Positions 4,388 through 9,894 of a stretch of DNA of 64,000 nt are shown here, in pieces; position 1 is the first letter of the stretch, and each line of letters starts with the position of its first letter. A model generated the notes under the pieces. That model was not told the origin of the DNA, ran no database searches, and saw only the letters and a program-made list of their open reading frames with translations. Source of the stretch: Pyrinomonadaceae bacterium (lineage in GTDB: Bacteria > Acidobacteriota > Blastocatellia > Pyrinomonadales > Pyrinomonadaceae); the NCBI GenBank assembly GCA_036277115.1, contig DASUNM010000011.1, forward strand, positions 1 to 64,000. The letters are read 5' to 3'. Made by a program: the position numbers and the translations under genes.

Positions 4388-5498
4388 TTAAGCTGCTCGC
4401 TTCGACAACAGATACTGCTTAATAAACTCGTCGATGTCGCCGTTGAGGACTGAATCGACGTCGCCTTTTTCCAGTTTAGTGCGCGCGTCTTTCACCAGCC
4501 GGTACGGCGCGAGCACATAGTTCCTAATCTGCGAGCCGAATGAGATGTCCTGCTTGTTCGCCTCAAGTTCGGCCGTTTCCGCCTTGCGCTTTTCAACTTC
4601 CAGTTCGTAAAGCCGGGAGCGCAGGACCTGCATCGCCACGGCGCGATTCTGATGCTGCGAACGCTGGTTCTGACACGACACCACAATGTTGGTCGGCAAA
4701 TGCGTGATGCGCACCGCCGAATCCGTCACGTTGATGTGCTGCCCGCCTGCGCCGCTCGAACGATACGTGTCCACGCGTAAATCCTTTTCGTTGATCTCGA
4801 CTTCGATGTCATCGTCGATTTCCGGATAGACAAACAACGAAGCAAAAGAAGTATGTCTGCGCGCCGCTTGATCGAACGGCGAGATGCGCACTAATCGATG
4901 CACGCCCGCCTCGGCAGATAACAGCCCGTACGCGTATTCGCCTTCGACTTTGAACGTCACACCCTTGATGCCAGCTTCTTCTCCCGGCTGGTAGTCGATG
5001 ACCTCAGTGCGAAATTCGCGTCGTTCAGCCCATTTCAAATACATGCGCAGCAGCATCTCAGCCCAATCCTGCGATTCGGTGCCGCCCGCGCCCGGATGAA
5101 TGGTGCAGATCGCGTTGCGCCCGTCATTCTCCCCGGACAGCAGCATCTCGGTTTCGGCTTCGGCGATCTCATGTTCGAGGCGTTTGACCAACTGACGCAG
5201 CTCAGTCAGAGAGCTTTCGTCTTCTTCCGCAAATTCAAAGAGCACTTGTGCGTCTGAAAGCTCGGTCTCGAATTTCTCTTGCCGCTGGATGACGCGCTCC
5301 AAACGGCTTCGTTGCTGCAAAAGCTTCTGTGCTTCTTCCTGATTCGACCAAAAGTCCTGGGCCGACGCCTGTGTTTCAATTTGGCTTAGCTCAGTTTGTT
5401 TCGCCGGGACATCAAAGAAACCTCCCGAGCTGATCGACGCGCTTCTTTAAGTCGTCGAACGAGTCTCTTAATTCCTGAATTGATTGTGGATCGATCAT
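4388..5498 (-). CDS. prfB: Peptide chain release factor 2 with programmed +1 frameshift
   Basis: RF2 recognises UGA and UAA and triggers peptide release. The reading frame is in two parts. A first frame starts at ATG 5498 (MIDPQSIQELRDSF...) and runs 28 codons to ...LGRFL, then TGA at 5412-5414. A +1 shift at CTT-T-GAT continues as DVPAKQTELSQIETQ... to the stop at 4388. The joined protein is about 369 residues, the normal RF2 length. The shift site has the classic parts: an internal Shine-Dalgarno-like GGGAGG, then TTT CTT TGA. This is the known autoregulatory frameshift, in which low RF2 favours shifting. GGQ is present (SSGAGGQHIN), and the SPF-type region reads SPFDQAARRHTSF. A simple ORF call would wrongly start at 5320. 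Confidence 0.97.
5412..5426 (-). promoter_or_regulatory. prfB: prfB +1 frameshift site
   Basis: Read on the minus strand, GGGAGGTTTCTTTGA contains an internal SD-like element (GGGAGG), a slippery CTT codon and an in-frame TGA at 5414-5412. Frame -1 before the TGA and frame +1 after it both read as RF2 sequence. This establishes the shift directly from the sequence. Confidence 0.95.
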
Positions 5499-5506
5499 TT
5501 GTAATG

Positions 5507-5569
5507 GGTACGCACGCCTCAGGCGTGCTCTTATCACTAGTTGCCGAGCACGCCAGAGGCGTGCGTACC
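5507..5569. repeat. Palindromic GTACGCACGCCTC element (copy 1)
   Basis: Two 22-nt arms, 5507-5528 (GGTACGCACGCCTCAGGCGT plus GC) and 5548-5569, are inverted complements with one mismatch, separated by 19 nt. Each arm is itself a small palindrome (GCACGCC/GGCGTGC). The same element lies at 29967-30028, and a degenerate form at 24550-24592. It provides the last codons and the stop codon (5537-5539) of lnt. Confidence 0.85.
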
Positions 5570-7171
5570 TTTTCTCCTTGTCATAAACGTCGCTGAAATG
5601 AATCCCAGAGTAATTAACGCGCAGCCGTAAGCGAACACATCGCCGTGGCGCGAATAAAAAGTTGATCCGATCGCCGTCTTGCTCACCGTCCAGGTTCGCA
5701 CTGCTTCCTGAAAACTCGGCGTAGCGTCGCGCACAGTGCCATTCGAGTCGATGTAGGCGCTGATGCCGCTGTTGGTCGCACGAACTAAATCGCGATCGTT
5801 TTCCACGGCGCGAAAGACGGCGGCCGCGAGGTGCTGACGCATCACGGCAGTTGGTCCCAGATAGCCATCATTCGAAATATTAATCAGCACATCGGCTCCG
5901 GTATTCGTGAAGGCGCGCGCTACATCGGCATGAGCGGCCTCTATACAAATAAAAACCCCGGCACGAAACGCGCCGAGGGGCATCAGCGTATGCGAACTGC
6001 CGGGCGTGAATTCGCCGACGATACTCCGTACCGAACCCGAACCCGGTAGCCAGCGGGGCAGCGGCACGTTCTCGCCAAACGGCATCAGGCGAATCTTATC
6101 ATACTGCGCGATTTTCTGACCCTGCTCATTTACGAGAATTGCAGAATTGTACGAGCCGCCATTCGGCGCCGGCTCGAGCGAATTAAGCAGCACGTACGTG
6201 CGATGTGTGCGCGCGAGCGAACCGATGGTTGCTTGCAGTTGAGGATCGCGCGAGTAGCTGAAGTTCATCGGTGATTCAGGCCAGATGAGAAGACGATGCT
6301 GCGCTTCTGTTACTCCTGCTCTCGAGAAGGCTTCGTCACTTAGTTGGACATGACGTTCAAGCAGCATCCTGAAACCGGCATCGTCCTGTTGAGTCATGGG
6401 CACATTTGGTTGCACCGCCACGACCGCATCAAAAGGTTGAGGCTCAGAAGAAACCGGACCGCGGTTCATTGCCGCCATAAAAGACATTCCTAAAACGCAA
6501 TAGACGCCCAGCAGAACTACTACCGCTACTACGATCCGCCGAGTCGTCCGGTGAATCGCGCCGAAGGTTATTGCTGCATTGGCGATCACAATGAGAAAAG
6601 TTACGGCGTAGACACCGCCTGCTCGCGCACTCTGAATGAAGAACGGCTGAAACGCCTGGGAGTATCCAAGCGCATTCCAGTCAAGTCCTGTGACCACGGC
6701 CCGCAGCCAATCGCATGCGACCCACACCAGCGGCGTCCCAACTAACGCCGAAGTTCCGAATCTTTTGACGACGTGCGAAATGCAGAGGCAAGCCATCGCC
6801 GGAAAAACTGAAACGAAAACAACTGGCAGCAGCAACAGCGGGTACGCGAGCCACGGCGCCACCCCGGCGAAATGAATCATTGGGTACGTTAGCCACCAGC
6901 AGGTTCCGTAAAAAAAGATCATTCCCCAAATCAAGCCGAGGACGAACGCCGTGCGTTTTCTGGAAGTCGTCGCGACGGCAAAGAGCAACGGCGCTAATCC
7001 GATCCAGGCCAGCCACCACAAATCGAAATTTGGAAATGAAAGGACAAGGAGAATGGCTGATGAAGAAGCCAATCCAAATTCACGAAGTGACGGCGCGCTT
7101 GCGCGGATCGCGGTGAGGAAAAGCGGTCGCCGCCTTTGAATTGGCGGTTCATCCGCCAGCACTTCGCTCAT
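5537..7171 (-). CDS. lnt: Apolipoprotein N-acyltransferase
   Basis: A 544-residue inner-membrane enzyme. It transfers an acyl chain from phospholipid to the N-terminal Cys of apolipoproteins, the last step of lipoprotein maturation. About six N-terminal membrane helices (residues ~30-230) precede a nitrilase-type domain with the expected catalytic residues: Glu in LLIWPESPMNF (~298), Lys in YDKIRLMPFGENVPL and Cys in VFICIEAAH. A C-terminal helix follows. The final residues (GTHASGVLGN) are encoded by the palindromic repeat element and are not part of the family core. prfB starts 38 bp downstream. Several lipoproteins in this window would be its substrates. The start MSEVLADEPP is the first in the frame. 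Confidence 0.95.
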   Translation of the reverse strand: MSEVLADEPPIQRRRPLFLTAIRASAPSLREFGLASSSAILLVLSFPNFDLWWLAWIGLAPLLFAVATTSRKRTAFVLGLIWGMIFFYGTCWWLTYPMIHFAGVAPWLAYPLLLLPVVFVSVFPAMACLCISHVVKRFGTSALVGTPLVWVACDWLRAVVTGLDWNALGYSQAFQPFFIQSARAGGVYAVTFLIVIANAAITFGAIHRTTRRIVVAVVVLLGVYCVLGMSFMAAMNRGPVSSEPQPFDAVVAVQPNVPMTQQDDAGFRMLLERHVQLSDEAFSRAGVTEAQHRLLIWPESPMNFSYSRDPQLQATIGSLARTHRTYVLLNSLEPAPNGGSYNSAILVNEQGQKIAQYDKIRLMPFGENVPLPRWLPGSGSVRSIVGEFTPGSSHTLMPLGAFRAGVFICIEAAHADVARAFTNTGADVLINISNDGYLGPTAVMRQHLAAAVFRAVENDRDLVRATNSGISAYIDSNGTVRDATPSFQEAVRTWTVSKTAIGSTFYSRHGDVFAYGCALITLGFISATFMTRRKGTHASGVLGN

Positions 7172-7500: not shown

Positions 7501-7521
7501 GTTGGTTTTTGGCGGCTCGTA

Positions 7522-7696
7522 AAAAGCAGGAAGCCCGGTCATTTCTGACCGGGCTCTTGATAGGGGGGATTGAACTGAAGGATCGCTCGGTAGGCGGCTG
7601 GCGCAGCGGCTTGCAGCGCTCAGAGAAGTGATGGCGGCGGGGGCACGTTTAACTTCATCGTGCTTGCCGACTTAGTCTTCAGCACTTGCCGTGCCA
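7522..7696 (-). ncRNA. Candidate small RNA/leader unit, copy A
   Basis: A 175-nt segment nearly identical to 7815-7991; differences are about six substitutions and a 2-nt indel. Read on the minus strand it holds a 12-codon ORF (7620-7658, MKLNVPPPPSLL), a GC-rich structured part, and a hairpin AGCCCGGTCA/TGACCGGGCT at 7555-7532 followed by TTCCTGCTTTTT, a plausible rho-independent terminator. A -10-like TATCGT lies at 7704-7699, but no good -35 was found. Function unknown. Confidence 0.5.
7620..7658 (-). CDS. 12-codon polyproline ORF, copy A
   Basis: MKLNVPPPPSLL then TGA; the peptide is identical in copy B. Four consecutive Pro codons would slow ribosomes that lack EF-P rescue (known biology), so this may be a stalling leader peptide. 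There is no obvious Shine-Dalgarno, and the preceding GCACG can pair with CGTGC inside the ORF, which would hide the start codon. Confidence 0.35.
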   Translation of the reverse strand: MKLNVPPPPSLL

Positions 7697-7705
7697 AGAC
7701 GATAG

Positions 7706-7801
7706 AGTCAGAGCCGCTGCGGTAGCGGGCGGTTGTTATTGCAGAGTTCTTCCCATTCATGTTTGAAGATCAACCACCCGCTACCGCAGGTGGCTCTGAC
7801 T
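7706..7801. repeat. Long inverted repeat between the twin units
   Basis: The arms at 7706-7734 and 7771-7801 are near-perfect inverted complements built around CTGCGGTAGCGGG / CCCGCTACCGCAG, with AGTCAGAGCC at the outer end. The loop is ~36 bp. It separates the two copies of the 175-nt unit and probably replaced the upstream promoter region of copy A. It looks like a non-coding palindromic (REP/MITE-like) element. Confidence 0.75.
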
Positions 7802-7814
7802 TTGTCGCAACGCT

Positions 7815-7991
7815 AAAAGCAGGAAGCCCGGTCATTTCTGACCGGGCTCTTGATAGGGGGGCTATTGAACTGAAGGATCGCTCGGCGGGCGGCTGGCGCA
7901 GCGGCTTGCAGCGCTCAGAGAAGTGATGGCGGCGGGGGCACGTTTAACTTCATCGTGCTTGCCGACTTAATCCTCAGCACCTGCCGTGCCA
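7815..7991 (-). ncRNA. Candidate small RNA/leader unit, copy B
   Basis: The second copy of the unit, 177 nt. On the minus strand a promoter-like pair, TTGGCG (8027-8022) and TACAAG (8004-7999) with a 17-bp spacer, would start transcription near 7992. That is where homology between the copies begins. The unit ends in the hairpin AGCCCGGTCA/TGACCGGGCT (7848-7825) and then a T-rich tail. The 5' GGCACG and the GCACG just before the ORF both complement CGTGCC inside the ORF, so two mutually exclusive stems are possible. No known RNA family was recognised. Confidence 0.5.
7915..7953 (-). CDS. 12-codon polyproline ORF, copy B
   Basis: Encodes the same peptide as copy A (MKLNVPPPPSLL, TGA stop) in an identical local context. 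The nucleotide sequence of the ORF is also unchanged between copies, so copy comparison does not distinguish protein from RNA selection. Confidence 0.35.
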   Translation of the reverse strand: MKLNVPPPPSLL

Positions 7992-8027: not shown

Positions 8028-8040
8028 GCACAAAACGAAA

Positions 8041-8071
8041 GCGGCAAGAGTCATCGTAAGACTCTTGCCGC
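8041..8071 (-). terminator. Rho-independent terminator of the TPR gene
   Basis: A perfect 12-bp stem, GCGGCAAGAGTC/GACTCTTGCCGC, has a 7-nt loop and is followed on the minus strand by TTTCGTTTTG. It lies 33 bp after the stop codon of the 596-residue TPR gene. Confidence 0.85.
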
Positions 8072-8103
8072 CTTGCTCTTAACGCTTTGCTCTTTGCCGC
8101 CCG

Positions 8104-9894
8104 CTACGGTCTTCCCATCGTCACTTGCCTTTGCAGCGCGACGGCTTCCTGATTCGCGGAATCGAGAGTCATGGCGCTCGCCGCGTACTTGCGTGCTTCG
8201 CCGATGTCTCCGCGCTCAAGAAAGATTCGACCCAGCAGAATGTGCGCATCAATCGCTTTCGCCGACGGGTCCCAAAAGATGGCCGTCTTGAGGGACGCAA
8301 TGGCAGCCTCCTGATCGCCACGCCGTTGATTGATGCGACCGCTCAAAAGAAACGCTTCGGCATTCGTCGGTTCAATCACCAGCAGCTTTCGAATCTCGAC
8401 CATTGCTTCATCGTCGCGTCCCTGCTGATACAGTTCGCGAATTTTGTTTAGAGCTTCTTCAGTGTTATCGACTTTAGCCTGCTCAATCAGCTGTAGCCGC
8501 GTCAGGTTCGAAAGATCGACCTGGTTCAACACGTCGCGCGAGCGCGGCGAGACGTTGGGAATCGTTTGGGACTTTTGCCATTCGGTTTGCCACTTGGCAT
8601 AGCTGGCCTGCATGTAAACACGCGCCTGATTGTCCGCCGCATTCGCTGGTTCAGCGCGGCCCGCGCGCTCCTGTGTCTTTGCGAGCAGGAAGTACGCCTG
8701 GCCATCACGGGGATCTGCGGCGATTACTTTCTCGAGTTTCTCGGCGGCGTCGGCGTACTTTTCAGAAAGGAACAAAGCGTAGCCATAGTTGAAAAGAACC
8801 GTAGCGTCATCGGGTGACGAATCGGCGGCGCGCGAAAGCAAAGTTATCGCTTGCAGCAACAGCCGCGTCTTCTCCTCGGGTTTCTTTTCGGCCTTTGCGG
8901 CGGCGATCGAAACGGCGCCGGCGTTGTTGTAGACGGCAACGAGAGGCATCACCTTCTCGTCCGCCAATGGCACCAGAATCTCGAGCGCCTTCTTGTCCTC
9001 GCCGAGTTTCCAATATGCGAGCCCGGCGTAAAACTGCGCTTCGCCATAATGCGGCTCTCTCTTTTGCACCATCGTGAGGTACTCAGCGGCCTCTTTCAGT
9101 TGACCCTGACTCAAATGAAACTCGCCGAGCGCGAACGCCGCCTGCGAATAAACGGCGCCGCCGTTCTCTTTCTCAAACAGCTTCATCGCGTTCTTCAAGT
9201 AGATGGCGCGCGTCGGGTCCTTGGCCGCGGTCAGCAGGCCTTTCATGTAGGCTTCGAATGCCTGAGGCGGAACGCGCGTCGCTTCCTGGATGAGCTGGTT
9301 GCGTGAAAACGAAAGGGCCTTGTCGCGCTGCGAAAGAATCTGATAGGCGAGCTCGCCATTCATCTTTTGCAGGTCGGTCACGGTGCCGCCAAAGTCGTAA
9401 ACGCGGGGCGCCCACGCACCGTCGAACACGTCACCGGCCATGCGACCTTCGTTGATCCGGACGACGCGCGCTTCCCCTGCGATCGTTGCCAGGGCCTTTG
9501 CCGTTTCGGGTTTGTCGGGCGAGGCCGCCGGAACCGTCACGTTGAAATTACCGATGACGATGATCGTGGCTCTTAGTTCGCGAGCGATCTTGATCGCCGT
9601 GGCGCGCGACGGCAGCACGGTCAGCGGCAGATGCAAGCGTTGATACGCCACGGCTCGCTCGTCACCCGTGATCACGACCAGGCCGGGTTTAGTCAATAAA
9701 GTCGACATCGAGTCAGCGAAGCTCTCGCCGATCCAGTTAAATTCGGGATGATTTGAGCGGTTCTCGAACGGCAACACGACAACGGTTTCCGTCGCGCCTG
9801 ACTGCGCCAAAGTGGCTGGGGCAGACGCCGTCGAAACGACCAGCGAAACAACAACAGTCGAGAATATTGCGAATAATCGTCTAAACATCAGCAA
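8104..9894 (-). CDS. Exported TPR protein with FlgO/CsgG-like N-terminal domain
   Basis: A 596-residue protein with a signal peptide (residues ~1-30, TASAPATLAQS). Residues ~36-190 (VVVLPFENRSNHPEFNWIG then ESFADSMSTLL) resemble the FlgO/CsgG/TolB-N-like fold found in envelope proteins. The rest is mostly tetratricopeptide repeats in two blocks (~245-440 and ~490-590), with typical AxxxLxxAI spacing. The likely role is a periplasmic scaffold; no enzyme motif is visible. The gene is monocistronic with a strong terminator. Start choice between MLM and MFRR is uncertain by two residues. Confidence 0.75.
   Translation of the reverse strand: MLMFRRLFAIFSTVVVSLVVSTASAPATLAQSGATETVVVLPFENRSNHPEFNWIGESFADSMSTLLTKPGLVVITGDERAVAYQRLHLPLTVLPSRATAIKIARELRATIIVIGNFNVTVPAASPDKPETAKALATIAGEARVVRINEGRMAGDVFDGAWAPRVYDFGGTVTDLQKMNGELAYQILSQRDKALSFSRNQLIQEATRVPPQAFEAYMKGLLTAAKDPTRAIYLKNAMKLFEKENGGAVYSQAAFALGEFHLSQGQLKEAAEYLTMVQKREPHYGEAQFYAGLAYWKLGEDKKALEILVPLADEKVMPLVAVYNNAGAVSIAAAKAEKKPEEKTRLLLQAITLLSRAADSSPDDATVLFNYGYALFLSEKYADAAEKLEKVIAADPRDGQAYFLLAKTQERAGRAEPANAADNQARVYMQASYAKWQTEWQKSQTIPNVSPRSRDVLNQVDLSNLTRLQLIEQAKVDNTEEALNKIRELYQQGRDDEAMVEIRKLLVIEPTNAEAFLLSGRINQRRGDQEAAIASLKTAIFWDPSAKAIDAHILLGRIFLERGDIGEARKYAASAMTLDSANQEAVALQRQVTMGRP

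Follow-up and report, generated by a model that had tools for sequence, protein, structure and literature searches.

Sequence comparison points to a tandemly duplicated small RNA gene with sigma-54 promoters upstream of lnt in Pyrinomonadaceae

Comparison across related genomes supports the presence, upstream of lnt in the window (the whole 64,000-nucleotide stretch of DNA analysed here), of two tandem copies of a structured small non-coding RNA gene, each with a predicted sigma-54 promoter and each independent of lnt. Taken as a whole, each unit is probably a free-standing, sigma-54-driven gene whose RNA would act in trans by base pairing, with the likely assistance of Hfq. Judged by its sequence, the RNA is an undescribed family of small RNAs (sRNAs) of a known general type, and we claim no membership in a described family. 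Although Acidobacteriota belong to the most common bacteria in soil, annotated sRNA families in the phylum numbered just four in a 2022 survey (PMC9029176). A strongly supported new sRNA family with a defined promoter class, carried by almost every member of Pyrinomonadaceae, the cultured Pyrinomonas methylaliphatogenes K22 among them, offers a direct way to learn what sigma-54 governs in these bacteria and how the copies of an sRNA multiply and diverge.

The units occupy positions 7522-7696 (copy A) and 7815-7991 (copy B), both on the minus strand as originally predicted, and are 96% identical over 181/179 nt. The differences reported in that prediction were confirmed: one 2-nt indel and six substitutions, four of them in the promoter and start region and two in the RNA (Table 1). 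The 4.85 Mb genome contains these two copies of the unit and no third. Between them, at 7697-7810, lies an imperfect inverted repeat of the CCGCTACCGCAGGTGGCTCTGAC type, which is unrelated to the units; it is one member of a REP-like repeat family whose 58 matches are dispersed through the genome. A strong terminator-like inverted repeat at 8038-8074, 3' of the TPR gene and 5' of copy B, scores on both strands.

Table 1. Features of the two units and their conserved neighbours in the window.
Feature	Position	Strand	Basis
lnt (apolipoprotein N-acyltransferase), downstream neighbour, conserved, outside the RNA gene	5537..7171	-	Pfam LNT_N + CN_hydrolase; synteny
TPR-repeat protein gene, upstream neighbour, conserved	8104..9894	-	Pfam TPR; synteny
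Copy B sigma-54 promoter TGGCACGGCAGGTGCT, GG at -25/-24, GC at -13/-12	7976..7991	-	exact motif match; conservation across copies
Copy B small RNA, putative start 7965 to conserved tail end	7814..7965	-	covariance model match, 154 bits; conservation profile
Copy B stem-loop 1: CGGC/GCCG closing helix, AA/CCCCC internal loop, GCACG/CGTGC inner helix	7930..7964	-	covariation in helices 1 and 2
Copy B stem-loop 2, UGAGCGCUGC...GCUGCGCCA	7894..7917	-	helix 3, two-sided changes in 7/8 pairs
Copy B terminator-like hairpin, then CCUGCUUUUA	7825..7849	-	helix 4, two-sided changes in 10/10 pairs; scan
Copy B 12-codon ORF, judged incidental	7915..7953	-	not conserved
Copy A sigma-54 promoter TGGCACGGCAAGTGCT	7681..7696	-	exact motif match; conservation across copies
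Copy A small RNA, putative start 7670	7521..7670	-	covariance model match, 155.5 bits
Copy A stem-loop 1	7635..7669	-	consensus fold, covariation
Copy A stem-loop 2	7599..7622	-	consensus fold, covariation
Copy A terminator-like hairpin, then CCUGCUUUUUA	7532..7556	-	scan; covariation
Copy A 12-codon ORF, judged incidental	7620..7658	-	not conserved

When the aligned copies were folded with RNAalifold, the RNA, about 150 nt long, formed three hairpins, the last of them terminator-like. Among 86 distinct copies, 98.2% of 2119 cells were paired and 21 of the 25 base pairs had undergone two-sided compensatory changes, both figures coming from an alignment that had been guided by the model and so leans towards the structure; in a plain MAFFT alignment, not fitted to the model, two-sided changes were already seen in 16 of the 25 pairs. 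The covariation score was 0.458, as against 0.243 in shuffled alignments, and none of 500 shuffles reached any of the measures. Sliding the partner strand by 1-3 columns reduced the paired cells to 28-45%. Column identity climbs to 0.82 at the -24 box, against about 0.4 further upstream; within the RNA it stays at 0.5-0.9, with a core of 0.8-0.9, and about 10 nt past the U-run it has fallen to 0.39. The conserved block thus spans promoter to 3' hairpin, as expected of a transcription unit. Within the RNA, the conserved C/U-rich stretches are mostly unpaired by prediction, and two motifs, CUCYGAGCG and CCGAGCG, recur nearly invariant at irregular spacing. Of the three natures that the original prediction had offered for the unit, the small RNA thus proved the right one, given the covariation, promoter and spread: the units are, on this comparative evidence, tandem copies of a structured small non-coding RNA gene. 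We also weighed a mobile or REP-like repetitive element without function, a reading in keeping with the dispersed repeat of the spacer and with the recurrence of duplications. The unit itself, however, is limited to two copies in the genome, keeps a fixed position and combines compensatory changes with a conserved promoter; covariation and synteny refute this reading, leaving it virtually no probability.

The terminator described in the original prediction holds in part. Both window copies have the hairpin, scored at 11 bp in our scan, but the T-rich tail is displaced: the stem is followed by CUCCYGC and then 3-5 U, with the U-run starting 6-7 nt after the stem. Because of this offset the 3' end may form in another way, and its exact position is uncertain.

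The sigma-54 promoter provides a second line of evidence. In the window it takes the form TGGCACG-N4-GTGCT, and a family-wide version, TGGCAYR-N5-TGC(W), is found in all usable copies except one; at L018 the promoter position is occupied by Ns. Across 83 promoter-bearing copies GG, CA and TGC are invariant and their spacing is constant, and in 80 of these the first G lies 24-26 nt upstream of the model start, the other three being divergent copies whose model start is uncertain. As the covariance model was built without the promoter region, this fixed position constitutes an independent check. The sequence TGGCACRNNNNKTGCW has four exact matches in its own genome, two at the window units and two that look like chance. 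Promoters of the -24/-12 type require an ATP-driven enhancer-binding protein that responds to some signal; the genome encodes 14 strong sigma-54 activator domains, and a search of 20 relatives found rpoN in every one. The promoter form recurs in published sigma-54 sites, among them those that precede glmY and glmZ, two sRNA genes (PMC3844500). By contrast, the promoter-like pair previously proposed to precede copy B did not survive analysis, since a sigma-70 scan found no promoter at the units and the real promoter appears to lie inside the repeated unit. We conclude that the unit is very probably an RNA gene under sigma-54 control. Inspection by eye revealed no convincing enhancer-binding motif upstream across genera; a TTTCCAGAAAA stretch, frequently followed by a T-run, adjoins the -24 box in many genera, though not in all (L010, L016, L021). 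At one locus adjoining lnt (L112; G039:C11, 6043-6190) the RNA body is intact and the sigma-54 promoter has been lost, and the same genome holds a promoter-bearing second copy elsewhere (L093).

This promoter also bears on the switch suggested in the original prediction, in which a 5' GGCACG and the GCACG preceding the ATG would compete for CGTGCC. The GCACG/CGTGC helix is real (helix 2), but the 5' GGCACG forms the promoter's -24 box and would not be transcribed, and the competing-helix switch was rejected. When the promoter was read as a hairpin, the -21/-15 pair was broken in 15 of 83 promoters, and only 2 had changes at both of its positions.

The unit was found by BLAST in 94 of the 119 genomes of the same family, Pyrinomonadaceae. 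A covariance-model search of Acidobacteriota genomes, of the kind that the original prediction had proposed, used a model from 56 copies and recovered the RNA in 103 of the 119, usually as one copy and often as two. Such recurrence is not chance. Carriers include P. methylaliphatogenes K22, an Aridibacter famidurans MAG, strain OLB17 and many Pyrinomonadaceae MAGs. The model matched nothing in other families of the class, and in an even sample of the phylum it matched 28 of 396 genomes, every one Pyrinomonadaceae; these class-wide and phylum-wide searches used stricter filters, with which weak matches can be lost. With filters off, the regions that precede lnt in the class's other families yielded no homologue (best score 14.5 bits, in the wrong place and on the wrong strand). 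Pattern matches in Alphaproteobacteria, Caulobacteraceae, Myxococcales, Frankiales and Streptomyces gained no support from the covariance model and were dismissed as chance. Some absences within the family are assembly gaps, as in G117, whose contig starts just before lnt; in G107, G094, G079 and G032 neither the RNA nor lnt was found.

The RNA precedes lnt in 27 of the 29 loci with 8-12 kb of context, usually with prfB and ftsK next, and shorter loci agree with this order. Its location on the same strand directly upstream of lnt in nearly every genome with context, together with a terminator without a canonical U-run, is what might be expected if the RNA were a cis-acting leader, the 5' untranslated region of an lnt-prfB-ftsK operon that it attenuates. 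We nevertheless consider this very unlikely. The spacing between RNA and lnt is variable (about 140 to 670 nt), a single leader can hardly account for two tandem units that each have a promoter and a hairpin, and the consensus fold contains no alternative antiterminator structure. Moreover, seven copies lie away from lnt (L089, L090, L092, L093, L094, L098 and L101), and those at L092 and L093 have their downstream genes on the opposite strand. All seven carry the sigma-54 motif, in the standard position in six and slightly displaced in L098, which argues that the RNA is a gene independent of lnt. In light of this comparison, we take the RNA to be a transcription unit of its own, not a leader.

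The copies at L092, L093 and L101 form one clade, a second, off-locus paralog common to three genera. Several lineages have tandem pairs, which cluster by genome in some and by position in others. The genes neighbouring the off-locus copies offer no functional hint. The copy at L098 (2138-2257), degenerate and shorter, scores 41 bits, has a sigma-54-like TGGCATACCGCTTGC upstream and adjoins a bile-acid-symporter-family gene and a GH95 gene; it is possibly a distant member of the RNA family.

The original prediction noted a 12-codon ORF, MKLNVPPPPSLL, which is indeed present, identical and open in both window copies, and which could in principle make the unit a small peptide gene or encode a ribosome-stalling leader peptide. 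Across 80 copies the frame is not conserved: an in-frame ATG before the proline codons occurs in 17, and the MKLN start in 2, namely the two window copies (eight divergent copies, in which the exact core used for the search is missing, were scored as lacking both). The ATG is not preceded by a Shine-Dalgarno (SD) sequence, and the CCCCGCCGCC bases are kept even in copies whose frame has no start. The proline codons are conserved because they coincide with this segment of the RNA, which is part loop and part helix 1. Homologues therefore keep the stem covariation and not the ORF, a coding function for the unit is extremely unlikely, and the polyproline ORF was set aside as a stalling peptide or sensor of translation or EF-P state, as was the small peptide gene.

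We propose that RNA polymerase with sigma-54 would start at ~7965 (copy B) or ~7670 (copy A), once an enhancer-binding protein answering some signal has activated the -24/-12 promoter, and would stop at the third hairpin or shortly beyond it. The RNA would then act in trans, probably with Hfq, whose gene is present in 19 of 20 relatives; its unpaired CCCCC (internal loop), CNNCUC, CCNNCCGAGCG, UCCUUCA and CUCC tail may pair with purine-rich ribosome-binding regions and so lower translation of the target mRNAs, and tandem copies with their own promoters would raise the RNA dose. The RNAs contain 5.05 SD-complementary 5-mers each, compared with 2.15 in dinucleotide shuffles (2.3-fold). The window copies have three only, fewer than many relatives, which makes the anti-SD idea weaker there. 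The start regions of the neighbouring genes showed no strong pairing (mean z -0.03 for lnt, 0.08 for prfB, -0.6 for ftsK and -0.35 for the TPR gene). With Hfq present, C/U-rich stretches unpaired and SD-complementary 5-mers in the RNA, base pairing at ribosome-binding regions is the likeliest mode and, given a sigma-54-controlled RNA gene, we regard such action in trans as quite probable. A bolder version, in which the multi-site RNA is a broad translation governor of Pyrinomonadaceae that throttles many mRNAs under one starvation or envelope signal, its dose set by tandem duplication, we hold to be unlikely.

Alternatively, the repeated C/U-rich motifs might sequester an RNA-binding protein instead of pairing with mRNAs, just as the sigma-54-dependent CrcZ and CrcY sequester Crc-Hfq. 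The near invariance of the two repeated short motifs, the extreme conservation of unpaired bases, the dose added by tandem copies and a sigma-54 control like that of CrcZ would all suit such a decoy. CsrA decoys, however, present GGA in loops and CrcZ carries A-rich Hfq-distal motifs, both of which are absent from the RNA, and the motif spacing is irregular; we therefore consider a decoy rather unlikely.

No Rfam family matched the window or its relatives above the gathering threshold when all 4227 were searched, in agreement with the original prediction. Sub-threshold matches were weak, the best being of microRNA type and falling on the inter-copy spacer repeat. Our literature search, from which subscription journals were mostly absent, turned up no description of an RNA of this kind from Acidobacteriota. 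Among known systems, Pxr is the closest analogue. In Myxococcus and relatives this lineage-restricted sRNA has a sigma-54 promoter and three stem-loops and is usually single-copy; in some species tandem paralogs occur, all with separate sigma-54 promoters, and the gene neighbourhood is fixed (PMC5568312). The family of the window RNA shares the promoter type, three stem-loops, lineage restriction, usual single copy, tandem promoter-bearing copies and fixed neighbourhood. It differs in phylum, in neighbour (lnt rather than the nla19 response regulator) and in length (~150 rather than ~110 nt), and is unlike the Pxr stretch in PMC5568312, the short stretch by which alone homology was compared.

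Sibling copies and the same promoter type also characterize the enterobacterial GlmY and GlmZ, the latter an Hfq partner. They differ from the window RNA in sequence and structure, without an Rfam match, and we saw no sign of a RapZ-like partner or glmS target for the window RNA. The glmZ sigma-54 promoter is TGGCACGTTATGTGCAAT (PMC3844500). RsaE/RoxS and other C-rich sRNAs, with unpaired C/U-rich stretches complementary to ribosome-binding sites, resemble the window RNA in how they work only; they are not sigma-54-driven and have no sequence relation to it, and for the window RNA the pairing is a prediction. In Vibrio, multiple sigma-54-dependent copies of the Qrr sRNAs repress by Hfq-assisted base pairing. 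Their copy number and promoter dependence recall the window RNA, as their mode of repression recalls the one proposed for it, but they have no sequence relation to it (no Rfam match) and are mostly dispersed, whereas window-type copies are mostly tandem.

Separately, the minus-strand sequence at 5407-5420, which precedes the prfB ORF, is TTTCTTTGATGTCC. We take it to resemble the usual RF2 programmed +1 frameshift site (CUU UGA); such a site would account for a prfB ORF without its start.
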